A DNA stretch of 34,855 bases, from NCBI GenBank assembly GCA_007135085.1, contig SLJM01000295.1, positions 1 through 34,855 on the forward strand, given 5' to 3'. The notes beneath the pieces are model-generated. The model was given only the letters and a program-made list of their open reading frames with translations, did no database searches and had not been told where the DNA came from. Positions 13,776 to 30,475 of this stretch are shown here, in pieces; position 1 is the first letter of the stretch; each line of letters begins with the position of its first letter. The translations under genes were made by a program, and so were the position numbers. The stretch is from Myxococcales bacterium. Lineage in GTDB: Bacteria > Myxococcota_A > Bradymonadia > Bradymonadales > Bradymonadaceae.

Positions 13776-14450
13776 ATGTCACTGCAGGAATTACCGCCGA
13801 CGCTCTACGAAGTATTCGCCCAGGTGGGCAAAGCGCTCTCCAGCCCCCATCGCCTTCGAATCCTCAACCTCCTCTCCCAACGAGACTGGTCCGTCGACGA
13901 GCTGGCCGATGCCCTGGGCCAGAGCACGGCAAATACGAGCGCTCATCTACAGGTGCTGCGCCAGGCGGTACTCGTGGAGCGACGGCGCCAGGGCAAACGG
14001 GTCTATTATAGTATCGCCGGAGAGCAAGCTGCCTCTTTATGGCTGACCCTGCGAGATATGGGACTGACCGAATTGCCAAATGCTCGCGAATTAATGAGGC
14101 GTTACCGCGGCGAGCCTCGATCGCTATCCCTTTTGAACAGTGATGAATTGCGCGACAAAATCGCCTCCGGAGAAATCGTTCTCCTCGATCTGAGACCTTC
14201 TCGAGAATATGAGTCAGGCCACCTGCCCTGGGCTCGCTCCATTCCTCTCGACGAACTGGAAGAGCGAATTGCCGAGCTGCCGGCGGACAAAAAAATCGTC
14301 GCCTATTGTCGCGGCCCCTATTGCGTCGGTGCAATCACCAGTGTGGAAACGCTGCGAGAATACGGGCGTGATGCTCATATTCTACGCGAGAGTGTGCTCG
14401 AATGGCGCGCTCTCGGCCTATCACTCGAGACCGCCGAGGTGCCCGCATGA
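13776..14450 (+). CDS. ArsR/SmtB-family regulator fused to a rhodanese domain
   Basis: The 224-residue protein has an N-terminal ArsR winged helix (about 10-95) with 'LSSPHRLRILNLLSQRDWSVDELADALGQSTANTSAHLQVLRQA'. Its C-terminal rhodanese domain (about 115-215) has the active loop C178-R-G-P-Y-C183. The only two cysteines in the whole protein are those of this loop, and the metal-binding cysteine motif of classical ArsR proteins is absent. Rhodaneses carry persulfide on the loop cysteine, so sulfur or redox sensing through the fused domain is the natural inference, not a demonstrated function. Its last four bases (ATGA) overlap the start of the DsbD-like gene, so the two are translationally coupled. 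Confidence 0.9.
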   Translation: MSLQELPPTLYEVFAQVGKALSSPHRLRILNLLSQRDWSVDELADALGQSTANTSAHLQVLRQAVLVERRRQGKRVYYSIAGEQAASLWLTLRDMGLTELPNARELMRRYRGEPRSLSLLNSDELRDKIASGEIVLLDLRPSREYESGHLPWARSIPLDELEERIAELPADKKIVAYCRGPYCVGAITSVETLREYGRDAHILRESVLEWRALGLSLETAEVPA

Positions 14451-16675
14451 AGCGCCATTTTCTGAGCCTGTCGATCTTTTTTCTCACCCTCCTCTTTGCC
14501 GCTCCTCTTGCCTGGGCCGACATCGAGGTCCCCCCTTCGGCCTATGATTCAGGCATTCACGAGCACGGTCATGCCCAGACCGAGGTTCGCCTTCTCACTG
14601 AATACGAGCAGGTTCGCCCTGGTGACGAGTTTCGGGTCGGTGTTCTGTTTCGACTGGAACCGGACTGGCATATCTATTGGGAAAACCCAGGCGATGCCGG
14701 CCTCCCCACCCAGATAAGCTGGGGAGCTGAGGGGCTCGACATCAAAGACCTCCAGTGGTCAGCCCCCGGCGTCTACCCCGAAGCGGATGGCACGTTGACC
14801 ACCTTTGGCTACGATGGAGAGGTTCTCCTCTTCAGCCGCGCCGTGGTCAGCGACGACGCCACAGGTTCAATCGAGCTCAGCGCTGACGTCGAATATCTGG
14901 CCTGCCGCACCAGTTGCCTCCAAGATGATCATCAATTGTCGCGGACCATCACCGTCGGCGACGAAGCGGTGCCGGCCGACGACGAGATACGCCGCCTCTT
15001 TGACGACTACGCCATGCAGGTCCCCCAGCGGGCCGACGCCGTGGGCATTGAAGCTCACGCCGAGAAGATCGACGATGAGAGCGCCCTACTCCACATCGTT
15101 CTCTGCGAAGAGGAGACCCTGGACTGCCCGGCAATGGAGCTGGTCTACGAGGAGGTCAAATATGCCTTCGTCACCGCCGCTGAGAGCGAAGTCCTGGTCG
15201 ACGTCGCCGAAATCACCGACCACCCAACGGCTCACCTGGGTTGGACCTTCGAGCTCAACCTGAAGAAACAGCACCCAATCGAGCCTCCCCAGCTATCGGG
15301 GGTCTTTCGACTGGACGACGGCTACGGCTCGCTCCTGCCCATTCACGTGACCACCGCCCTTATGGATGCCCCCTACGGGGCCGATGAGGCCGGCGAAGTT
15401 GCAGATGGGACCTCCCCGCTGACACCGGTGGACGACAAACCGCTGTCGCTATTTTTCGTGCTGATCTTCGCGTTTTTGGGCGGCCTCATCCTCAACCTGA
15501 TGCCCTGCGTCTTCCCCGTGCTGGCCATCAAGGTGGCGTCCTTTACCGAGCTGGTTCAAAAGGACAGACAGAGCATCTTCGCCAACGCCGCCGCCTACAC
15601 CGGCGGCATCACTGCCAGCATGCTGGCTTTGGGACTGGCTGTGGTAGGACTCCAACTGGGGGGGACCCAGGTGGGATGGGGCTTCCAATTTCAGCAACCC
15701 CTCTTTCTGGTGGCTCTGACGATCATCATTGTATTATTCGCCCTCAATACATTTGACCTCTTCCAGGTCTCGGTGGGAGCCAACTCGCTGGCCGAGAAAG
15801 CGGAGTCCACCACGGGGGCCCGGCGCAGTTTTGCAGAAGGGATCTTGGCCGTGGTGCTGGCCACGCCCTGCTCGGCGCCCTTTTTGGGGACTGCCGTGGG
15901 CTTTGCGCTGACCGCCAACGCCGCCACCATCCTGCTCGTCTTCGTAGTCCTCGGCCTCGGTCTTGCCTCGCCATTCGTGGTGCTCACCATGATCCCCGGC
16001 GCCGCCAGAATTCTCCCCAAACCGGGGGCCTGGATGGGCCACCTCAAGACGTTTTTGGGCTTTGCCCTGCTCGCCGCCGCCATCTGGCTGGTCTGGCTGG
16101 TGGGACGGCTGGCCGGGGTGGACGCCATGGGGCGAGTGCTTGGCTTTCTGGGCGCCCTGAGCATGGCCACCTGGCTCTTCGGCGTTGTCCAATATCGAGC
16201 CTGGGACAAGGTCAAGGCCTTTACGGTAGCTCTGGCGATCACCATCGTCGCCGTGGCCGCCACCCTCACCTTCCCCATCGACGCCACGCCCCCTCAACGC
16301 GGCGGTGAAGTAGCTGCCGTCGAAGAAGGTGAGATTCACTGGCTGGAATGGAGCCACGACGCCGTCGACGAACAACGCGACGCGGGTCGTGCGGTCTTTG
16401 TCGATTTTACGGCCGACTGGTGCCTGACCTGTCAGGCCAACCTTCGAAATGCCATCGACACCGAATCAGTCCGCGAATCCATCGCCGACAACGATGTGGC
16501 CATGTTCAAGGCCGACTGGACTCATCCCGACGAGACCATTCGTGCCGAGATCGAGTCCTATGGCAAAGCCGGGGTGCCGATGTACCTCTTCTACGGGCCC
16601 GGCGATTCGACTCCCGAGGTCCTCCCGGAGTTATTGACTCAAGGGATGCTCATCGAGCGCTTCCAGGCTCAATAG
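14447..16675 (+). CDS. dsbD: DsbD/ScsB-family protein-disulfide reductase
   Basis: This 742-residue membrane enzyme should carry electrons from cytoplasmic thioredoxin to the periplasm. A signal peptide (about 1-23, ending AWA) is followed by a periplasmic alpha domain with the pair C153/C157 (CRTSC). A hydrophobic core of about eight helices (roughly 335-605) has the paired redox cysteines C354 (NLMPCVFP) and C475 (ATPCSAPF). A C-terminal thioredoxin-fold domain has C659-L-T-C662. The N-terminal domain looks more like ScsB than classical DsbD, so copper or redox stress is a possible client pathway. The start is the ATG at 14447 (GAGGT six bases upstream), overlapping the regulator's stop; the longer frame from 14402 lacks a signal peptide at its end. 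Confidence 0.92.
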   Translation: MKRHFLSLSIFFLTLLFAAPLAWADIEVPPSAYDSGIHEHGHAQTEVRLLTEYEQVRPGDEFRVGVLFRLEPDWHIYWENPGDAGLPTQISWGAEGLDIKDLQWSAPGVYPEADGTLTTFGYDGEVLLFSRAVVSDDATGSIELSADVEYLACRTSCLQDDHQLSRTITVGDEAVPADDEIRRLFDDYAMQVPQRADAVGIEAHAEKIDDESALLHIVLCEEETLDCPAMELVYEEVKYAFVTAAESEVLVDVAEITDHPTAHLGWTFELNLKKQHPIEPPQLSGVFRLDDGYGSLLPIHVTTALMDAPYGADEAGEVADGTSPLTPVDDKPLSLFFVLIFAFLGGLILNLMPCVFPVLAIKVASFTELVQKDRQSIFANAAAYTGGITASMLALGLAVVGLQLGGTQVGWGFQFQQPLFLVALTIIIVLFALNTFDLFQVSVGANSLAEKAESTTGARRSFAEGILAVVLATPCSAPFLGTAVGFALTANAATILLVFVVLGLGLASPFVVLTMIPGAARILPKPGAWMGHLKTFLGFALLAAAIWLVWLVGRLAGVDAMGRVLGFLGALSMATWLFGVVQYRAWDKVKAFTVALAITIVAVAATLTFPIDATPPQRGGEVAAVEEGEIHWLEWSHDAVDEQRDAGRAVFVDFTADWCLTCQANLRNAIDTESVRESIADNDVAMFKADWTHPDETIRAEIESYGKAGVPMYLFYGPGDSTPEVLPELLTQGMLIERFQAQ

Positions 16676-17581: not shown

Positions 17582-19825
17582 GTGACCAGAACAGAATTTT
17601 TTTCTCCACAAGGCGACTGGTTTTTGCGCTCTCACCGCCAAGATCTGGCCAACGATCTCGGGGAATATATTTTTCGGGCCAATCCGCAATTGATGACCCG
17701 CCATGGAACGGTTGGCCTCGAATCGACCCAACGGGAGATGGAGCAACACCTGGCTTCGTTATTCAATACGATGGTGTTGGACTCACCACAGGTTTTTGCC
17801 GAAGATCTGACCTGGTTTCGGAGTAATATCAATCGTTCCGACCTCGATGATCTGCAATTTGAGCCGATGCTCGACCAGGTGCTCCACTTTTTGAAGGACG
17901 CCTTGCCCGAAGAAGAGGCAAATCATGTGCTTCGGTTTATAGCCCGTGCCCGCCGAGGCATGGCTCACACGCCTGAAAGGGGCTCCTATATCACCGAGAC
18001 CAACCCCTTTCGCGAGTTGGCCCTGCGAATTCTCGATCTCATCGTCGACGAACGTCGAAGGCTGGCGAGCGCATTGGCATATTCTGCCGTGGAGTCTGGA
18101 ATCTCTCTGTCAGAATTTTATCTCCATGTCCTCCAGCCGGTGCAATACGAGGTGGGAAGGCTGTGGGAAGCGGGGCAGATCAGCGTCTCCGCAGAGCACT
18201 ATACGACCACCGCCACTCTGTCGATCATGTCCGAACTCTATCCGCTGGCGCTCACTGGCGAAGACGCCCCTGAACGGGTTGCCGTCATCGTCGCCGTCGG
18301 CACGGACACTCATACCCTGGGCGTTCGCATGCTGGGCGACCTGATGGAGGCCGACGGCTGGACAGTGCATCTGCTGGTCAACCGCAACCACCCACAGGAG
18401 ATCGTCAGGGCCCTGTCGAATTTTGACGCCGATCTGCTCGCCATATCAGTGACCATGTCTCGCCACCTTCTCCAGGCTGGTGAAATCATCGACGCCGTCC
18501 AATGCACCGACCATCAGGCGGCCACAAAGATCATGGTCGGAGGACGGCCTTTTGAACTCGATCAGAACCTGTGGAGGAAATTCGGGGCAAATGGGTGGGC
18601 AGTCGACGCCCCCCGGGCCGTGCAGATGGCCAATCTCCTAGTAGAGGAGCGAGCCTTGGACCGATCCGATCTGTCACGACGACCCCACGGGCCGGGGACG
18701 ATCTGGTGGTTGATAGATAAAGGACCGGAGACCGCAGTGGTGCGCGACGAGCTGGGCTTGAGCGACCTCATCGACGGCAATGAGGAGTTCGACCTGTCCC
18801 GACTTCTCGACTCCCTCGATGGCCGCACTGCCCCCTTGAAAGCCCCGGTCCTCCTGGCGGGCCCCGGTGAGCCGAGACGATCGGAGATCTATTTCGATGC
18901 CCACCGGCACCATGATCGATGGGTCATCGCCGCCTCCCACTCCATCCCCGACGTGGAGGCTCTCATTGACGATGGCATCCGCACGGCTCAGGCCCTCGAA
19001 AAAACGCTGAATATCGCATCTCTGCAACGAGAGGACGCCTCAGCTCAGATAAAGAGCCAACTTCCCGGATTGGCGGGATTATATTCAGAGATCACCACTC
19101 TACAGCGCGAATTGGTCACCAAGACCATCAGCCTCGAGGAAATACAGCGCGATCGAGACCGCCTGTTGGCCATGGCTGCCCATGATATGCGCAACGCCCT
19201 GACCGCCATCGACGCCAATTCCTTTCTCCTCGAGGAATTATTGGGGGACCTGGAAATCCCCGGTGACGTCTATCATCATTTGCAGGCCATCTCTCGCAGC
19301 AGCGGGTATTTGTTGAAGCTGACCGCGGATCTGCAGGAGCTGGCCAGCCTGGAGACGGCGTCGCTAACCTGTCGTCCCATCGATCCACTCCCCCTGATTG
19401 TCGAAGGAGTCGACGACGCTCGCGCCGTCGCAGCAGGCAAGAATATCACCGTTGAATTACACACAGGCGATGATTTGCCTCCAGCCTCGTTAGATACGAC
19501 GCTATTCAGGCGGCTTCTCGGCAATCTGTTGAGCAACGCACTGAAATTCTCTCCTCCTCACAGCACGGTCTACGTGGAGGCCTCGGCGTCAGAGGAGCGA
19601 CTTATCCTGACCGTCCGCGACGAGGGGCCTGGAATTTCCCCAAAAGAGATCGAACAACTCTTCGACCTCTTCTTTCTCGGCAAAGCCCGCCCCACCGGAG
19701 GAGAACGGAGCACGGGCCTTGGGCTGCCCATCGTCAAACGGATCGTCGACGCCCACCAGGGAGAGATCGACATCGACAGCACCGTGGGCGAAGGCACGGC
19801 TTTTACGGTGTCACTTCCCTTATGA
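17582..19825 (+). CDS. Soluble cobalamin-binding sensor histidine kinase (predicted B12 photoreceptor-type sensor)
   Basis: The 747-residue protein has no transmembrane segment. Residues 1-110 are helical and resemble RsbRD/globin-like sensor modules. About 130-225 is a four-helix B12 cap with W195, nine residues, then E205-H206, the Wx9EH signature of CarH/LitR light sensors. About 232-360 is a B12-binding Rossmann domain with D242-T-H244-T-L-G247 (the DxHxxG axial-ligand motif), 'SVTMS' and 'VGGRPF'. A PAS-like or linker region follows, then a coiled coil, the HisKA H-box with H534 (AAHDMRNA), N-box N652, D680 (DEGPG) and a G2 box 'TGLGLP'. AAGGA at 17569-17573 supports the GTG start. All catalytic boxes are intact. 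CarH has a His after the Trp that forms the light adduct; here it is Glu196, so the light reaction could differ. No response regulator is adjacent. Confidence 0.88.
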   Translation: MTRTEFFSPQGDWFLRSHRQDLANDLGEYIFRANPQLMTRHGTVGLESTQREMEQHLASLFNTMVLDSPQVFAEDLTWFRSNINRSDLDDLQFEPMLDQVLHFLKDALPEEEANHVLRFIARARRGMAHTPERGSYITETNPFRELALRILDLIVDERRRLASALAYSAVESGISLSEFYLHVLQPVQYEVGRLWEAGQISVSAEHYTTTATLSIMSELYPLALTGEDAPERVAVIVAVGTDTHTLGVRMLGDLMEADGWTVHLLVNRNHPQEIVRALSNFDADLLAISVTMSRHLLQAGEIIDAVQCTDHQAATKIMVGGRPFELDQNLWRKFGANGWAVDAPRAVQMANLLVEERALDRSDLSRRPHGPGTIWWLIDKGPETAVVRDELGLSDLIDGNEEFDLSRLLDSLDGRTAPLKAPVLLAGPGEPRRSEIYFDAHRHHDRWVIAASHSIPDVEALIDDGIRTAQALEKTLNIASLQREDASAQIKSQLPGLAGLYSEITTLQRELVTKTISLEEIQRDRDRLLAMAAHDMRNALTAIDANSFLLEELLGDLEIPGDVYHHLQAISRSSGYLLKLTADLQELASLETASLTCRPIDPLPLIVEGVDDARAVAAGKNITVELHTGDDLPPASLDTTLFRRLLGNLLSNALKFSPPHSTVYVEASASEERLILTVRDEGPGISPKEIEQLFDLFFLGKARPTGGERSTGLGLPIVKRIVDAHQGEIDIDSTVGEGTAFTVSLPL

Positions 19826-19868: not shown

Positions 19869-22800
19869 TCACATACACCCTGCTCCCGTCGAGCCGTCAT
19901 CATATTGGATGATGCCGTCAATACACCCCGAGGGGCCCGGGCAATCACCATCGTCTTCACATTCAAGGGTGCAGATATTGTTGAAATAACAGCCCCAGCC
20001 GTCGGGACAGCCCGCCTCGTCGGCGCTACAGATTCGCGAACACACTCCATAGGCAGTCATACCGTTTCGGCAGACTGCACCATCTCCGGTGCCGCACTGG
20101 CCGGCGCCGTCACAGGAATCGCCCCAGTCGCCTGAGCCGGTGCCGACAAACCAGCATTCCTTATTGCCGTCGCCGGTGGCGTCGTAGCAGGCATAGTCGG
20201 AACGCCCACAATCTGCGTCGCTATTGCAGGAGGCCACACAATACCGACCGAAGATGGTCATCCCCACCTCGTCGGGCAAGCTGTTGGTCGGCGTGCAATG
20301 AGAGCCGGCCGGACAGGTATCGTCGTCGCAGAAATTGATGCTGCAATAATTACCGGGATAGGAATAATTGCCGTCTTCACCGAGACAGACCACGGACATA
20401 AAGCCTTCGTCGGGGGCCTCGCCGCAGTCGGATTCGTCGGTACAGGCCGAGCCGATATGCTCGTTTTCCACCTCCGGCACGCAGCTGATCTCGAACCCCA
20501 GTTGGTTCTGGGCGCATCGCCAGCCGGAGGGACACCAATCGTCGTTGCCGCAATAACGGGAGCACATGCCCTGTCCCGTATCTTGTCCCTGGTCATCGAA
20601 GAGGGTTCGACATACGGCGTATTCACCGACGCCACCGCACTCCGAGGCCCATTGGCAGGATTCACCGTAATCTCGGTCTCCAATACCGACGTGCCAGCAT
20701 TGATCTGCGCCGTCGAGGTTGGCATCGAAACAGGCGTATTCCGTGCGCGGGCAATCGCCGTCGCCTTCACATTGAAGCACGCAGTACCCTCCCTGTCCCC
20801 CGGTGAGCACGGTCCGCCCCGAATCATCGTAGAGCGGCGGGTCATCGGCGCAATAGGAACCGGAGGGACAGTGGTTGTCATGAGAACAGGGGAGCGTGCA
20901 ATAGCCGCCCGACATCACCACCGGGTGGAGATCTCCGCCGTCGAAACAGCGATCGCGATAGTGGGGGTTATTCACCCCGCTCTCACAGTCGGTGTGGTGA
21001 GCACAACTGAGCCCAATCTCGTTCTTCGCAGGCTCGACGCATATCGATAATGTGGCATCACATTCCCATCCCGTAGGACATTGGACGCCGCCCAGATCAC
21101 ATCGCTGTGTGCAGAAGGTAAACTCCCGACTCTCAGTGGTGGTGAGATAGGAGTTCTCCGTGGCGCAGACCGCAAAATCACCGATCTCACCGCAATCGCG
21201 GGAGGTCTCGCAGACATCACCGAAATCGCCGTCCCCCGTGCCTGTGTGCCAGCATTCGGAGCGGCCGTCGCCGTTGGCGTCGTAGCACCCATAGCCCTCG
21301 CGGGGGCAATCGGCGTCGCTATCGCAGGACGGTACGCATAGATTAAAGGCCAGGCTCATAAAGAGAGAGCTATGCATCTGCCCTCGGTAGAGTACGTCTG
21401 TGGCGCAATGGGTGTCGTCCGGGCATTCGCTATCGTCTGCGCAGCTCAGCGCACAGAATCCTCCGAAGACCCGATTCTGCTCCTCCGTGATGCAATAGGT
21501 CGACGACGAACCGGGGGCGTCGTCTCCGACGGTGGCGCAATGGTCATCCTCGGTGCAGCCGCTTCCCACGTGGGGTTGAACGTCGCAGTCGTTGTCGGTG
21601 ACCTCCGTGCAATGGCCACCGGCGGGACAACAACCATCGTTGTCGATACACATCCACTGGTGACGCTGCACACATCTCGAGGCGCAGATATAGGCCGAGA
21701 TTTCAGCGTCGGGAAACGCCCTCTCCACTTGACCGAAGGTACAGACGTCGTCGGGATCTTCGTCGACACAATCGTCGTCGCTGATCGGGCAGTCGCCGTC
21801 GCACCACTCCTGTGGCTCTTCGAATTGGCCGGTGCCGCAGACGAACCCACACTCCGGGTCGGGGCCGCCCACGCAATCGACGTGACAGCAATAATCGCCG
21901 CTGCCTGGTACGAGCTCCACCCATTCGGGCTGGTTGGGCTCTTCGCTGTCGCGATAGGCCTCGGCGGCCCCCGGATCGTCGGCGCAATAGACGTCGAGGA
22001 TACATGCCCGCATGATCGCATGATGGGTCACGCCCACAGCCTCACAGGCGTCACGACCGATCTGCTCCTCTCCCGGAGGTAAATCATCGAGGGACATCGC
22101 CGAAGCAGGCATATTGGGCAACGTATAGTCGGCGGTGCCGAACCCATCATCGTAATTAAAGAGCGACTCGGACTGACTGATCCGCCAGCTATCGGCGTAA
22201 TCACCGTGGATTAGTTGGTGGTCCCATTGTTCGATGACCTGGCCGTTTCGATAGGCGATATCATTGCCGGGATAGCCGTTGAATTGACCGAATAGCCCCT
22301 GCAATTGACCCAGTCGCGAATAATGGGCGTTGAAGCGAATATCGATGCGGTTCGAGCCCATGGTCACATGCATCCAGGATCTGTCGGGCCATTCCATTAA
22401 GAATTTGTCATCTTCGGTCTGCAAGACCGTATGACCTCCGCCCAGGTCCATAAATCCTCCCGGCAAGGCCGTGGTGGCCTCACCGTCGAGGAGGAGTCGA
22501 CCTGGGCCGTCCACATAAAAACCCAGTCGATAATCTCCCATCTGGACTGCCACCGCCGAATTGCGGCGGGCGTTTGGACAGCGACCGCCACCGAGGGGCT
22601 CCTGGCGCACCTGGATCATCATCCCATCGTCGGCTCGCGACTCGACCAGGACGAATTCCCCGGCCGACTGGAAGCCGTAGATCAAGCCGTCGGTGGTACG
22701 GATCTGGGTGCCGCCGATACTCTCGGCGCCCCGCTCGATATCGGAGGGACAACTGGCCTGCACAATATCCTGGGTCGGCCCTGCCGGGGTCCATCCCGGC

Positions 22801-24773
22801 GAATCACCCCGCCGGTCATCCGGTCGATAGGGGCCGCTGATCTGCACGCCCTGCTCGTCGACGATTGCCAGCCCATGCTGAGGTGCGTCGAACTTTGCGT
22901 ATGGAATTGCATAGGAGGAGTCGCCCGTACAGCCCACGTCCATCATGCAGTGGCGCAACATGGTGGGATCCGAGATCCCCACGTTCTGATCGCAGACCCG
23001 CCGGCCGTATTCGTATTGCTCCTCGCTCAGATCATCCAACGACCTCGGTGCAAATGGGAAACTCGTGGGAGCAAATTTCTCAAACGATTCGCCAGGTCCG
23101 TAGTCAAACAGCGACTCATGGCGACCGACGCGCCAGCTATTGCCGAATTGTTCGTAGACCTCAGCCCTCTGTATTGGCTCGGGCAAGAATCGCCCGTCTC
23201 GAAGTATGAGTCCGTCCTCACCGTCGACCTCGTGGTTTCCCACAAGCCCCCTCGCCTCAACGACTCGCTCCCGCGGCAGATGTTCCATCTCCAGGGCCAG
23301 GTGCCGATCGAAGACGTCGACCCGGATACGCTCACCGTCCCTTCGCTCGATGATATAGGACTCACCACGTGGCAACTCGACGGCATTTCGCGTCACAGTG
23401 GTGTGATCGCCGACCTGCCAGAAATATTGCGACACCTCCTGTGGCTCGCCGTCGATCCACAGCGGCGACTCACGATCGAGATAAATCCCGATACGGTGCC
23501 CTTCTGAGCCGACGGCCACGGCCGATATCTTACGCCCGTCGGCACATCGCGAATGGGGGTTGTCCACCTGTCTTATCTGGATATGAAGCGAGTCCCGCGC
23601 TCGATGCCGATACCAGACGAACTCGCCCGTATCCCGGAAGGGATAAGATCGGCGGTTAAGGGGCATCATCAGCGGGTTGCCACATCCGAATTGCGAAAAA
23701 ATCACTGCCGCTGCGATCAAGATGGCGCCCGCCGCCAGCACCACCACCCCGGCCAGAAGGGCTCCCGCAAAACCTGCTACCACACCGGCGACGATAATCG
23801 TCACCAGGCCAACCACAGCCCCTACCTCCTGCATCGTCAACGGCTCTCGCTGCCCGGCCTGTTTACCGAAATTGATCGCATCCCAGGCGATGGAGGCCAG
23901 GGTGGGCAATCCTTTGGTAAGGGAGCTAAAGACCAGCCCAAAACCGAAGTCTGCCACGGACTGAAAGTCCTCGCAGACGGTGACCAGCTTTTCAAAAAGC
24001 GTCCCTGCTCGGGACTGACTTCGACAGGCGTCGAGCGCTGCCGACAGGTGGTGGTGGATATTTCCGTCGAGCAATATCCCCATGAGAATTCCAAACCGCT
24101 CATCCCCCAATGCATCCGTATCTACGTACTCCAACAGCCACTCTTCGATGGCCTCCTCTTCCATGGTCACCTCTCCCCCGACGGCGACTTCCTGAATGAT
24201 TCGCTGGTCCCCGGTTCCCGCAACAAGGCTCAAACTCCTCACGGCGAGCAAGGGGTTGTCCTCGCTCACGGCGAGCAGATCGGGTTCGTTGATATCGGTC
24301 AAAATCTGCATTTCCAGATAATGCTCGCCCGTCCCGATTCGATTTGTCATGAAGATGGGAGGCGTTTCGCCGTCGATCGATCGAAGAGCTCCGACTCTGG
24401 ACGACCACATCAAATCCGGTCCAGAGTCAGAGGACAATTGCACGTCGAATGCCGTACCGTGCTGGGCCCCCAGCGTACGAGCGCTTAATTCCACCCGCCC
24501 CTGTCCACCCGACGATTGTTGGTAGTCGAAGCGTGTCGTTCGCTCTTCGGGAAAGCTCTCGAAGTCGATGGAGTAGATTCCGAATTCATCTCGCAGCAGT
24601 TCATCGGTCTCAACCGTTCCCCCGTGAAGATCTTCACAGACCAGTTGATCCACCCCGTCTTCGAGCTCCACTTCGTCGTCTCCTCCCCCGCAACCGATCT
24701 GGGACAGCGACGGCAATAAGAAGAAGAGAACTAGAACGGGATAGCCTGAATAAAAAAAGCGCAGAAATTTCAT
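19869..24773 (-). CDS. Large lipoprotein with two VWFD domains and three C-terminal Cys-rich modules
   Basis: The 1634-residue exported protein starts at ATG 24773 (a TTG 12 bases upstream is possible). The signal peptide ends in QIGC, with Cys28 the likely lipid site, though the -3 residue is unusual. A Gly/Ala/Val-rich hydrophobic stretch lies at about 316-362. VWFD domain 1 (about 371-563) and VWFD domain 2 (about 683-874) each end in 'SLF[DN]Y' followed by a Cys motif like 'CxxDVxC'. From about residue 960 to the end it is cysteine-rich, with 'CxxDxDCP'-like motifs and three modules of 180-186 residues. VWFD proteins in eukaryotes form adhesive polymers; in this lineage they are uncharacterised surface proteins. 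The neighbour at 24859 is a paralogue of the VWFD part. It is convergent with the B12 kinase (43 bases between stops). Confidence 0.82.
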   Translation of the reverse strand: MKFLRFFYSGYPVLVLFFLLPSLSQIGCGGGDDEVELEDGVDQLVCEDLHGGTVETDELLRDEFGIYSIDFESFPEERTTRFDYQQSSGGQGRVELSARTLGAQHGTAFDVQLSSDSGPDLMWSSRVGALRSIDGETPPIFMTNRIGTGEHYLEMQILTDINEPDLLAVSEDNPLLAVRSLSLVAGTGDQRIIQEVAVGGEVTMEEEAIEEWLLEYVDTDALGDERFGILMGILLDGNIHHHLSAALDACRSQSRAGTLFEKLVTVCEDFQSVADFGFGLVFSSLTKGLPTLASIAWDAINFGKQAGQREPLTMQEVGAVVGLVTIIVAGVVAGFAGALLAGVVVLAAGAILIAAAVIFSQFGCGNPLMMPLNRRSYPFRDTGEFVWYRHRARDSLHIQIRQVDNPHSRCADGRKISAVAVGSEGHRIGIYLDRESPLWIDGEPQEVSQYFWQVGDHTTVTRNAVELPRGESYIIERRDGERIRVDVFDRHLALEMEHLPRERVVEARGLVGNHEVDGEDGLILRDGRFLPEPIQRAEVYEQFGNSWRVGRHESLFDYGPGESFEKFAPTSFPFAPRSLDDLSEEQYEYGRRVCDQNVGISDPTMLRHCMMDVGCTGDSSYAIPYAKFDAPQHGLAIVDEQGVQISGPYRPDDRRGDSPGWTPAGPTQDIVQASCPSDIERGAESIGGTQIRTTDGLIYGFQSAGEFVLVESRADDGMMIQVRQEPLGGGRCPNARRNSAVAVQMGDYRLGFYVDGPGRLLLDGEATTALPGGFMDLGGGHTVLQTEDDKFLMEWPDRSWMHVTMGSNRIDIRFNAHYSRLGQLQGLFGQFNGYPGNDIAYRNGQVIEQWDHQLIHGDYADSWRISQSESLFNYDDGFGTADYTLPNMPASAMSLDDLPPGEEQIGRDACEAVGVTHHAIMRACILDVYCADDPGAAEAYRDSEEPNQPEWVELVPGSGDYCCHVDCVGGPDPECGFVCGTGQFEEPQEWCDGDCPISDDDCVDEDPDDVCTFGQVERAFPDAEISAYICASRCVQRHQWMCIDNDGCCPAGGHCTEVTDNDCDVQPHVGSGCTEDDHCATVGDDAPGSSSTYCITEEQNRVFGGFCALSCADDSECPDDTHCATDVLYRGQMHSSLFMSLAFNLCVPSCDSDADCPREGYGCYDANGDGRSECWHTGTGDGDFGDVCETSRDCGEIGDFAVCATENSYLTTTESREFTFCTQRCDLGGVQCPTGWECDATLSICVEPAKNEIGLSCAHHTDCESGVNNPHYRDRCFDGGDLHPVVMSGGYCTLPCSHDNHCPSGSYCADDPPLYDDSGRTVLTGGQGGYCVLQCEGDGDCPRTEYACFDANLDGADQCWHVGIGDRDYGESCQWASECGGVGEYAVCRTLFDDQGQDTGQGMCSRYCGNDDWCPSGWRCAQNQLGFEISCVPEVENEHIGSACTDESDCGEAPDEGFMSVVCLGEDGNYSYPGNYCSINFCDDDTCPAGSHCTPTNSLPDEVGMTIFGRYCVASCNSDADCGRSDYACYDATGDGNKECWFVGTGSGDWGDSCDGAGQCGTGDGAVCRNGMTAYGVCSRICSADEAGCPDGWGCYFNNICTLECEDDGDCPGPSGCIDGIIQYDDGSTGAGCM
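19905..21566 (-). repeat. Three tandem Cys-rich modules (546-558 bases each) in the VWFD lipoprotein
   Basis: Module starts lie near 21566, 21020 and 20462 (reading the minus strand), with the third ending near 19905. Each module holds a 'C..DCP' motif pair and an almost identical core at about 21295, 20739 and 20199: 'CYDANGDGRSECWHTGTG', 'CFDANLDGADQCWHVGIG' and 'CYDATGDGNKECWFVGTG'. Spacings are 556 and 540 bases. The modules are diverged but clearly homologous, so the repeats are old in-frame duplications and not a recent DNA repeat. Confidence 0.8.
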
Positions 24774-24792
24774 ACCCAATCCCAACCATCTC

Positions 24793-24815
24793 GAGGCCCC
24801 GAAGGCCTTCGCCTC
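24793..24815. other. Hairpin between the two VWFD lipoprotein genes
   Basis: GAGG (24793-24796) and CCTC (24812-24815) flank the perfect 12-base palindrome CGAAGGCCTTCG (24800-24811). It lies between the stop of the upstream paralogue (24859) and the start of the large gene (24773), the spot for a partial terminator or a stabilising hairpin. No T-run on the minus strand. Confidence 0.35.
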
Positions 24816-24858
24816 ATTGGCCGGCGTTCATCAACCGGCGCGAAAGATTCAAACAGTC

Positions 24859-27264
24859 CTATTGGCCACTGGCCGTAATCACTCGCAGCTCGTTGATGCC
24901 ACTTTCCGAATTCAACCGGACCTCGACGGCACGCCCTCCCTGCTTGATCTCTATCCAGCCACCGTCAAAGTCCACGCCCCGCCCCTGTTCGGCGAAGTCG
25001 GCACCGTCGATGGCGAAGAGAGCGTCGCTCGAGGCCAACCCGGCGTCGGTGACAATCACCCCCAATACGTCGTGGGCGAAGATGAGCTCTCCCTGAAGCG
25101 CTCCCGTGCGCTGCGGCACCTCGTTGAGGTGAAGCAAGAAGGAATGGACCGACGTGCCCGGCGCGATCTGGTGGGAACTCAAGTCGTCCTCGTCGTCAAC
25201 ACGGCCCGCTTCGACGACGTCGACCTCGAGCGCGCTCGAGAGGGTCACGCCCCCTGCTTCACGGACGAAGCTGATGCACTCGTCGACCTCGGGGGGGCAA
25301 CTGGCCTGCCCGGCGGGCGAATAATCAAAACTGTCAGGGGCCCCCAGACAGATATCGCCGTTGAGGGTCACCGGCGCCTCCATATGCATATCCGTATAGG
25401 AGAGGCTGGCGCTCAGATGCTCCGTCGACGCCACCAGCTCATCGTCGCACATGCAGGCCACGTCGAAGATGCACCAATTGTGATCGGGGTGGCCGGTCAC
25501 GCCACGACAGGCCGCCCTGGCCTGCAGACGAACGTCGTCGGGAAGGTCGTCAATATCGACCTCCTCCTCAGGAAGCTCGGGGAAGGTAAAGGTCGACGTA
25601 TCCTCACCAGGGGCATAATCGAAGAGCGACTCCGATTGCTCGACGCGCCAGCTGTTGACAAAATCGCCGTAGAACTCCTCGAAGGTAAAGGGCTTTTCTA
25701 TGATCCGTCCGTCACGGGTCTTGAAGTCGTCGCTCGTGATATTCGTATAATTGCCCCAGAGCCCGCTGATCTGGCCGAACCGGCTCTTGGGCAAGGTGCC
25801 CTGCATATCGAGTTGGTGATCCCGCACGGCGACCTCCAGCTTCTCTCCCCCTGGCCAATAGAATTTAAAGCCTCGCTCTCCCCGTTGATGAATCGACGCT
25901 CCCGCCGAAATCCCGGAGAGCACCTCCGCAGAGATGCGCTCCACGGGCTGACCGTTGATCCACAAGTGGGGGGCTTCGTCGCGATAGACTGCGATTCGCG
26001 CCGCCCCCATCCTAAAGGCCACCGCCGAGATGACCGTAATATTCTGACAGGCCGAGATATCGCTTCGACAGGAAAGACTGGCTGCCGGTTCGGTGCGTAC
26101 CTGGATCTGCCAGGGATTGCCGAAATCGGCGTTGGCCAGGATGAACTCCCCGGCGGCATGAAAAGCAAAAGACGATCCGTCGAAGGTGCGCAGATGGGGC
26201 TTACCGCAGGCTTCGGCGCAATCCTCGCAGGGATTACCACCGCCGGGCTGAAAAATGGTTCGCACCTGGTCGTCATCGACGAGCAAGGTCGATGGAAAAG
26301 CCGTGCCGTCGTCACAACGGAGGCCCGACAACCCGATGGGCTGGCGCAGCTGCTGGCCTTTGTCCTCCCAGGCCTGGCGAGCACATTCGGCGGCGTGGGC
26401 CTCGACATGCTCCATCCAGGAGGGGTCCACATAAGCGGCGGCCAATAACCGCTCCGAGTCGCTGCCGATAATCGCGTCGGCGCCGGTGGCGGCCAGCCAG
26501 CCCTGAAGGTCGTCGACATCACCCAGACGTCCTCCCTGTTGCACCACCTCAAAGGTGGCCTGGCTATCGTCGGCGCTGTAGAGAAAACCACCCAGATTGG
26601 GGTCGCTCTCGCTGGGGACTCGATACTCCAATGCGGTAAGATTCGGCGCCGCCGGCAGCCCCGGGATCACGTCAAAACCACAACTGGGCACCGAATAGGC
26701 GCTCTCAAATACGGGCACCGGCCAGGCGCAGGGGTGACCTTGTCCTTCTTCGGGAGCCTCGTTGGCATAGCAATCCAGGGCTTTGAAATCAGCCCGAATC
26801 AAGACCTGTTCCTCACCGCTGACCAGAAGATTCCGAGTGCGGAATTCGTCCTGGTCCTGGTTGCTCACGATCGCATCGGTGAACAACTCCAGTGGCTGAG
26901 CGCCCTGGCGCTCGAAGGTGGCCCTCACCTGGCGCTCCACTCCCTGGTCGACGCCGAAATAACCCTCCACGGTCATCAGGCCCAGCTCATCACCAGCGCT
27001 GTCGAGCAATGTGATGGCTATCAGATCGGCTTCCACATCCGAGGCATAGGCGTATCTGGCAATCTCCGTATGCTCACGGACCCACTCCGATGCGTCGATG
27101 GTATTGGTATGTAGATCACCGTCACATTCGTAGGTGATCCCCTGGATATGTGGCTCTGGTTCGGGGCCGCAGGAGCTGCATGCCAGATTGAGCACCGACG
27201 ATATCAGGGTGGCGATAACCAACAACCCATAGGAGCCCCTCAGGGAGGGCATAAAACGCTTCAT
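24859..27264 (-). CDS. VWFD-domain lipoprotein
   Basis: The 801-residue product has a lipoprotein signal ending in NLAC (Cys29). A large N-terminal region without a known family holds several cysteines. A VWFD domain follows at about 352-550 ('LRTFDGSSFAFHAAGEFILA', ending 'SLFDYAPGED'), then the same post-VWFD Cys motif as its neighbour ('AACRG...WCIFDVAC'). The C-terminal third ('ALEVDVVEAGRVDDEDDL', 'VIVTDAGLASSDALF') looks like a beta-sandwich of the kind seen at the end of surface proteins in this lineage. It should be secreted and lipid-anchored. GAGAG precedes the ATG. It is upstream of the 1634-residue paralogue with an 85-base gap, probably in one transcript. Confidence 0.82.
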   Translation of the reverse strand: MKRFMPSLRGSYGLLVIATLISSVLNLACSSCGPEPEPHIQGITYECDGDLHTNTIDASEWVREHTEIARYAYASDVEADLIAITLLDSAGDELGLMTVEGYFGVDQGVERQVRATFERQGAQPLELFTDAIVSNQDQDEFRTRNLLVSGEEQVLIRADFKALDCYANEAPEEGQGHPCAWPVPVFESAYSVPSCGFDVIPGLPAAPNLTALEYRVPSESDPNLGGFLYSADDSQATFEVVQQGGRLGDVDDLQGWLAATGADAIIGSDSERLLAAAYVDPSWMEHVEAHAAECARQAWEDKGQQLRQPIGLSGLRCDDGTAFPSTLLVDDDQVRTIFQPGGGNPCEDCAEACGKPHLRTFDGSSFAFHAAGEFILANADFGNPWQIQVRTEPAASLSCRSDISACQNITVISAVAFRMGAARIAVYRDEAPHLWINGQPVERISAEVLSGISAGASIHQRGERGFKFYWPGGEKLEVAVRDHQLDMQGTLPKSRFGQISGLWGNYTNITSDDFKTRDGRIIEKPFTFEEFYGDFVNSWRVEQSESLFDYAPGEDTSTFTFPELPEEEVDIDDLPDDVRLQARAACRGVTGHPDHNWCIFDVACMCDDELVASTEHLSASLSYTDMHMEAPVTLNGDICLGAPDSFDYSPAGQASCPPEVDECISFVREAGGVTLSSALEVDVVEAGRVDDEDDLSSHQIAPGTSVHSFLLHLNEVPQRTGALQGELIFAHDVLGVIVTDAGLASSDALFAIDGADFAEQGRGVDFDGGWIEIKQGGRAVEVRLNSESGINELRVITASGQ

Positions 27265-29881: not shown

Positions 29882-30475
29882 TCACTCGAATTCGGGGAGC
29901 ATCAAATAATCTTGACCCGACGCCTCACCATGGCAATTAACACATCCCTCCACGTCCGGTCCCTCCAGGGCCATGCCCTCCATCTCCATGACCCCTTGCA
30001 GTTCAGGATCGGTCTTGAGCCAGTACCAATCGCCCATTTCTTCGGAGAGCTTTTCCATCACAGTCACTCCCGTCAACTCCTCTCCGTCGGCGTCGGCATA
30101 TTCTTCCTTGACGAAGATCGCTCCCTCGGGAATCGGCAGCTGTTGGTCTGCTACGGCCTGGTGGCCAACTTCGTTGGCATAGGGGATCACCCAGACATCA
30201 CCGGGGTGACCCGACTCGTAGGGTTCGTCCATCCCTTCGTGGTGCTCCCACTGTTCATAGCCCTCGATGGCAGCGATGAGTTCCGCCGCCTGTTCCGAGG
30301 GCTCGGCAAGCTCCATCTCCATCTCTTCCTCTTCCTCCACCACCGGTTCGGGCTCCGGCTCCTCTTCGACCTCGACGGGCTCCTCTACTTCGGGCTCCGG
30401 CTGTTCACACCCCGTCAGCGCCAGCCCTGCTATAATGATTGACACCAAAAACAACAATTCTGTTCGACGATTCAT
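29882..30475 (-). CDS. Cytochrome P460-like c-heme lipoprotein
   Basis: The 197-residue product has a lipoprotein signal ending in LTGC (Cys23), a linker of Glu/Pro repeats (about 24-60), and a domain with 'GHPGDVWVIPYANEVGHQA', 'IFVKEEYADADGEELTGVTVMEKL', 'DWYWLKTDPE' and the heme-c site C178-V-N-C181-H182. This is the cytochrome P460/c'-beta family layout (PF16694), with the CxxCH near the C-terminus. P460 enzymes oxidise hydroxylamine or bind NO; which applies here is unknown. GGAGG lies six bases before the ATG. The following two genes are SDRs in the same direction. Confidence 0.83.
   Translation of the reverse strand: MNRRTELLFLVSIIIAGLALTGCEQPEPEVEEPVEVEEEPEPEPVVEEEEEMEMELAEPSEQAAELIAAIEGYEQWEHHEGMDEPYESGHPGDVWVIPYANEVGHQAVADQQLPIPEGAIFVKEEYADADGEELTGVTVMEKLSEEMGDWYWLKTDPELQGVMEMEGMALEGPDVEGCVNCHGEASGQDYLMLPEFE

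Follow-up and report, generated by a model that had tools for sequence, protein, structure and literature searches.

The open reading frame at positions 17582 to 19825 (+) of the window, which is the whole 34,855-nucleotide stretch of Bradymonadaceae DNA analysed here (contig SLJM01000295.1), probably encodes a single-chain cytoplasmic photocobilin-type histidine kinase that arose as a natural fusion of a two-gene cassette. The cassette would consist of a photoglobin-B12 sensor and a PAS-like-HisKA-HATPase kinase, and these parts are joined in the present protein.

Gene and domain organization

The gene is intact and encodes 747 amino acids from a GTG start, with AAAGGA just 5' of the start codon and about 270 bp between it and the end of the preceding gene. 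Its features are as follows.

17582..19825 (+): whole gene, photoglobin, B12 cap, B12 Rossmann, PAS-like, HisKA, and HATPase_c, 747 aa
17603..18010 (+): photoglobin (phycobiliprotein-like globin), residues 8 to 143; from family profile, AF2, and Foldseek
18026..18238 (+): B12 cap (B12-binding_2), residues 149 to 219; from Pfam and alignment; G192-W195-x9-E205-H206, with E196 at the position of CarH His132
18281..18610 (+): B12-binding Rossmann domain, residues 234 to 343; from Pfam and alignment; D242-T-H244-x2-G247, S289, G320-G321
18710..18940 (+): PAS-like domain, residues 377 to 453; from AF2 strand/helix order, Foldseek, and hhalign
19154..19357 (+): HisKA dimerization and phosphoacceptor domain, H534; from Pfam and residue check
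19493..19822 (+): HATPase_c, N652, D680, GLGL box at 712; from Pfam and residue check

Pfam matched B12-binding_2 (residues 149 to 219, 3.6e-11) and B12-binding (residues 234 to 343, 1.7e-17) in the B12 half and HisKA (residues 525 to 592, 1.8e-8) and HATPase_c (residues 638 to 747, 4.9e-26) in the kinase half, and all four matches exceed the curated cut-offs. The H, N, G1, F, and G2 boxes of the kinase are intact (H534, N652, D680, FFLG at 697, and GLGL at 712). Hydropathy in 19-residue windows peaks at 1.29, and the peak falls inside the B12 Rossmann domain, which indicates that the protein has no membrane segment. The description of a soluble histidine kinase with intact HisKA and HATPase domains, given in an earlier note made from the sequence, is thus borne out; the residues that it named (W195, E205-H206, D242, H244, G247, H534, N652, and D680) are all at the claimed positions, and the Pfam check that it proposed for a B12 signature recovered both the cap and the B12-binding domain above cut-off. 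A membrane sensor was rejected for want of a membrane segment, and a flavin or LOV sensor was rejected as no match to such a family was obtained.

Between the B12 domain and HisKA, AF2 predicted a PAS-like fold by strand and helix order (residues 377 to 453) that was absent from the earlier domain list. Foldseek alignments between the model and LOV-PAS kinases spanned more than 410 columns.

Other genes were also observed in the window. Upstream of the kinase, at 13776-16675 (+), an ArsR-type regulator fused to a rhodanese domain overlaps a DsbD-type gene, and this region is likely a sulfur/thiol operon. At 19869-27264 (-) are two large convergent genes, one encoding a Cys-rich lipoprotein-like protein of 1638 residues and the other a protein of 800 residues whose von Willebrand type D domain is animal-like although the DNA is bacterial. 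A cytochrome P460-like protein is encoded at 29882-30475 (-) amid epimerase and esterase genes.

B12 module

A search of the sensor half against all solved structures returned SasPcob (8j2x/8j2w, 1.1e-15) as the best match, followed by AbDPcob (8j2y, 7.8e-12), CtMerR (8jbs, 3.4e-10), and CarH (5c8a, ~1e-3). The earlier label of a CarH/LitR-type module holds for the type of B12 photosensor, but the closest characterized proteins are the photocobilins (8j2w, 8j2x, and 8j2y) and not CarH. The cap and Rossmann domains carry the W-x9-EH and E/DxHxxG motifs of CarH-type B12 photosensors, and the fingerprint of the module comprises DxHxxG, S289 41 residues further on, and T291, followed after 28 residues by GG at 320-321. 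Residues W195, E205, H206, H244, G247, S289, G320, and G321 are the same in all 35 homologues, although these share only 24 to 42% identity with the protein, which indicates that the residue pattern is not due to chance. A generic corrinoid methyltransferase domain was rejected on account of the invariant cap Trp and Glu-His. The sequence makes it likely that the protein binds B12. AdoCbl is probably available in the source organism, since its genome encodes a lysine 5,6-aminomutase beta subunit and a methylmalonyl-CoA mutase B12 domain.

The light signature of B12 photosensors has four parts, GxxW, EH, GxxH, and GxxxP (PMC11796333). GxxW and EH are present in the kinase, and TxxH and VxxxH replace GxxH and GxxxP; the module, which is of the AdoCbl photoreceptor type, was thus described slightly too strongly as complete. 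The same-genus relative also lacks GxxH and GxxxP. Among the 35 relatives, the Gly of GxxH is absent from 8 and GxxxP is also absent in Saccharibacillus; the "LG" glycine is kept in 33, with Val266 in both the kinase and the same-genus relative. This erosion of the light signature in the lineage of the kinase had been overlooked in the earlier note, which instead singled out Glu196, in place of the CarH His that forms the light adduct, as a special feature. The residue at that position is Gln in 22, Leu in 7, His in 4, and Glu in 2 of the 35 homologues, and photocobilins with Gln or Tyr there are light-active (PMC10979010, PMC11796333). Glu196 is thus unremarkable, because the position already varies in working photoreceptors. 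The light state of SasPcob is a water- or hydroxide-ligated cobalamin with no bis-His adduct (PMC10979010, PMC11796333).

The loss of two of the four signature elements, together with the long branch of this lineage and the use of B12 in the metabolism of the host, would suit a sensor that is not photochemical and that signals the AdoCbl level or the redox or ligand state of cobalamin to the kinase, with light being incidental. However, the Trp and Glu-His, which in light-sensing proteins touch the adenosyl group, are invariant in all 35 homologues, a generic corrinoid domain would need neither, and the nearest relatives are proven photoreceptors, which makes a sensor of this kind rather unlikely.

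The same genome also encodes a separate CarH-like MerR protein (contig C254, L083:1393-2433, +) with the full signature GEGW, W-x9-EH, GEQHxxG, and GxxxP and with Ala at the His132 position.

N-terminal globin and bilin site

The N-terminal domain is a photoglobin, that is, a phycobiliprotein-like globin of the bilin type, according to the family profile and the AF2 model. A profile of residues 8 to 143 and their homologues searched against all PDB chains found the bilin-binding globin of SasPcob first (5e-9), followed by allophycocyanin (1.7e-6), phycocyanin (4e-6), and AbPcob (5e-6). Pfam Phycobilisome matched 11 of the 35 homologous globin domains (best, 1.6e-9) and did not match the N-terminal domain of the kinase itself. 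The domain was modelled alone because a Foldseek search with the full model gave kinases only; the AF2 model has six helices (pLDDT 89.7). Its top Foldseek matches were phycobiliproteins and SasPcob/photocobilins with a probability of 1.00 and TM scores of 0.66 to 0.68, and the assignment rests on the profile search as well because the E values were only about 0.1. The extra N-terminal helical domain of the earlier note is therefore present, and its identity makes the sensor half a known globin-B12 unit, in which a phycobiliprotein-like globin is fused to a B12 module as in photocobilins.

The conservation of the bilin site bears on whether biliverdin or another bilin is bound by the globin in addition, in which case red light would reach AdoCbl via the bilin and the kinase would be a full photocobilin responding to the whole visible range. 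The globin is homologous to that of SasPcob, and W78, invariant in 35 of 35 homologues, aligns with SasPcob Trp296, which touches both chromophores in the solved structure (PMC10979010). The bilin-contacting Asp270 of SasPcob aligns with E52, which preserves the acid; Asp occupies this position in 28 of the 35 homologues, but it is replaced by Glu in the kinase and by Val in the same-genus relative, and AbDPcob, which has His in its place, shows biliverdin binding of about 20% (PMC10979010). The search for haem oxygenase was positive for 11 of the 32 genomes that carry relatives and for the Polyangia genome, whose fused kinase has the bilin Asp; it was negative for the kinase's own genome (93% complete) and for four genomes of the same genus (incomplete assemblies). 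The missing haem oxygenase in its own genome is weak evidence, because the other 21 of the 32 genomes, mostly with Asp-bearing relatives, show none either. Bilin binding by this globin is doubtful from its residues, and a full photocobilin kinase appears distinctly unlikely. In the preferred reading, of a kinase switched by AdoCbl, the globin would cover the B12 domain as a lid with a structural or regulatory role, and its binding of biliverdin in this lineage is probably weak or absent.

Linkage of globin-B12 genes and kinase genes

A scan of species genomes with residues 1 to 373 of the protein retrieved 49 loci, 33 matching over the globin and B12 module and 16 over the B12 part only. The loci belong to Bacillota, Bacteroidota, Balneolota, Ignavibacteriota, Cloacimonadota, Fidelibacterota, Thermodesulfobacteriota, Acidobacteriota, Spirochaetota, and Myxococcota and to the archaeon Methanohalophilus, and in most of them the gene product is a separate protein of about 350 residues that comprises a globin and a B12 module. 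In 30 of the 33 globin-B12 loci, the next 400 bp downstream contain the start of a histidine-kinase gene on the same strand, and one of the three exceptions (L022) is itself a fusion. The corresponding number for the loci matched only over the B12 part is 11 of 16, and kinases make up 4 of 137 genes more than three places away in the same loci. A Fisher test of the linkage gave 1e-25, a value that overstates independence because the loci were seeded from the kinase and several come from related species, although the effect is still very large. Of five downstream neighbors examined with Pfam, four had HisKA and HATPase, and the archaeal one had HATPase together with PAS and a helical domain of the SpoOB type.

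Since the sensor is separate and directly precedes a kinase gene in nearly all globin-B12 loci, the present kinase appears to be a fused member of a widespread putative class of two-component systems that respond to B12 and probably to light. Kinase output, which the earlier note had taken as a departure from the norm, is the normal state of the globin-B12 family. We give an even chance to the broader proposal that a globin-B12 photosensor and a dedicated kinase, usually encoded by adjacent genes and sometimes fused, form a widespread AdoCbl-switched two-component class, represented in about ten phyla of bacteria and in one methanogenic archaeon. The present protein would be a fused version that is losing the bilin site and thereby uncoupling the B12 switch from the bilin antenna.

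Several of the loci have further features. Stand-alone globin-B12 genes with a histidine-kinase gene directly behind them include those of L014 (Paenibacillus albidus), L016 (Rhodohalobacter), L018, L025, and L028. A third signalling gene follows the kinase gene in a Cyclobacteriaceae genome (L018:8239-12228, a CheB-CheR-PAS-kinase hybrid) and in a Neomarinimicrobiota genome (L028:8139-10559, a receiver-PAS-kinase hybrid). In Geomonas limicola (L033, upstream of 6157), three ORFs stand in a row, the first globin-like and 138 residues long, the second short and with a B12 domain, and the third a kinase. This arrangement represents either three genes or two genes with a frameshift.

Many of the separate downstream kinases start with a domain placed like the PAS-like domain of the fused protein. 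A profile of their N termini had no significant match to the middle region of the fused protein, and hhalign aligned them with its PAS-like region over 80 columns at an E value of 2e-4 with a probability of only 47%; the two domains are for this reason called only probably equivalent. With the PAS-like domain adjoining HisKA and occupying an equivalent position in separate kinases, and with the sensor evolving fast in this lineage, the B12 and globin part could by now be a structural scaffold and the PAS-like domain the true sensor. This is very improbable, however, as the protein retains all of the family-invariant B12-contact residues, including the cobalt ligand.

Fused forms and their evolution

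Among 379 genomes of the phylum, relatives were found in 21 and fused kinases in four, namely, the source genome, a same-genus genome (42% identity), a Polyangia genome (L022/L065), and a same-class genome (L071). In the phylogenetic tree, the kinase, its same-genus relative, and the Polyangia kinase were grouped, though not firmly (86/93), and L071 was placed elsewhere, which indicates one or two fusion events. The kinase and its same-genus relative share a stem branch of 1.13 compared with a median end branch of 0.53, and this long stem is compatible with a changed function.

Comparison with known B12 photoreceptors and kinases

SasPcob and AbDPcob (8J2W, 8J2X, and 8J2Y; PMC10979010) resemble the kinase in having a homologous B12 module and a bilin-type globin, in keeping the cap Trp, the Glu-His, the cobalt His, and Trp296, and in having no His at the CarH 132 position. 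In contrast, the globin is C-terminal in these two proteins and N-terminal in the kinase, the output is absent or a GGDEF domain rather than a PAS-like domain with HisKA and HATPase, and Asp270 of SasPcob corresponds to Glu52 in the kinase, which also lacks GxxxP. Globin-B12 units are also joined to several other kinds of functional domain, and their B12 domain can be N-terminal or C-terminal (PMC10979010).

The MerR repressors of the CarH/LitR class (5C8A) share the cap Trp-x9-Glu-His and the base-off His ligand. However, CarH has an N-terminal MerR DNA-binding domain where the kinase has a globin, and it has His132 for the bis-His light adduct where the kinase has E196; the kinase is accordingly not a CarH in the strict sense, and its sequence match to CarH is weak. 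Soluble histidine kinases of the PAS/LOV type (e.g., 8A6X and 4GCZ) have the same order of PAS-like domain, coiled coil, HisKA, and HATPase, whereas the present kinase has no flavin-binding LOV domain and carries a globin-B12 module before the PAS-like domain.

Photoglobin-B12 proteins likewise have a globin beside a B12-binding light-sensor domain, and their fusion to other functional domains has been reported (Schneider et al. 2022, cited in PMC10979010 and PMC10151467). Schneider et al. reportedly name signal-transduction domains generally in their abstract on these proteins, and a kinase association is perhaps already listed there. The B12 module, the globin, and the kinase are each already known individually, and the detailed papers on B12 photoreceptors that were found characterize transcription factors, a stand-alone photocobilin, and a diguanylate cyclase. 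No characterized B12-photoswitched histidine kinase is reported in the open-access papers searched. In the open literature searched, which excluded the key photoglobin paper, no description was found of a fused globin-B12-PAS-like-kinase with an eroded bilin site or of a near-universal globin-B12/kinase operon.

Proposed mechanism and significance

In the proposed mechanism, AdoCbl would be bound base-off on His244 in the dark, with the CarH-type cap (Trp195 and Glu205-His206) against the adenosyl group. Green light would cleave the Co-C bond, the adenosyl group would depart, and the cap helices would move. The resulting cobalamin would be water- or hydroxide-ligated like that of photocobilins and not bis-His ligated like that of CarH, because residue 196 is Glu and not His. 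Altered dimerization of the sensor would act through the PAS-like domain and the coiled coil and change autophosphorylation of His534, whether upward or downward, followed by phosphotransfer to a response regulator probably encoded elsewhere. Light-gated kinase activity is plausible from the sequence, and a precedent for such a switch is AbDPcob, in which light raises diguanylate cyclase turnover more than tenfold (PMC10979010).

No response regulator gene is adjacent to the kinase gene; the closest one lies about 16 kb from it and is of the OmpR type. This gene (1271-1993, +) has no adjoining kinase gene in the window and is a candidate partner by default only.

The fused protein would offer a single soluble readout of dark and light AdoCbl chemistry as autophosphorylation, and the many split pairs make it possible to ask if control of the kinase by the sensor operates through contact between two proteins. 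If the proposal is true, green light and coenzyme B12 would enter two-component signalling, and the protein would provide a new scaffold for optogenetic kinases.
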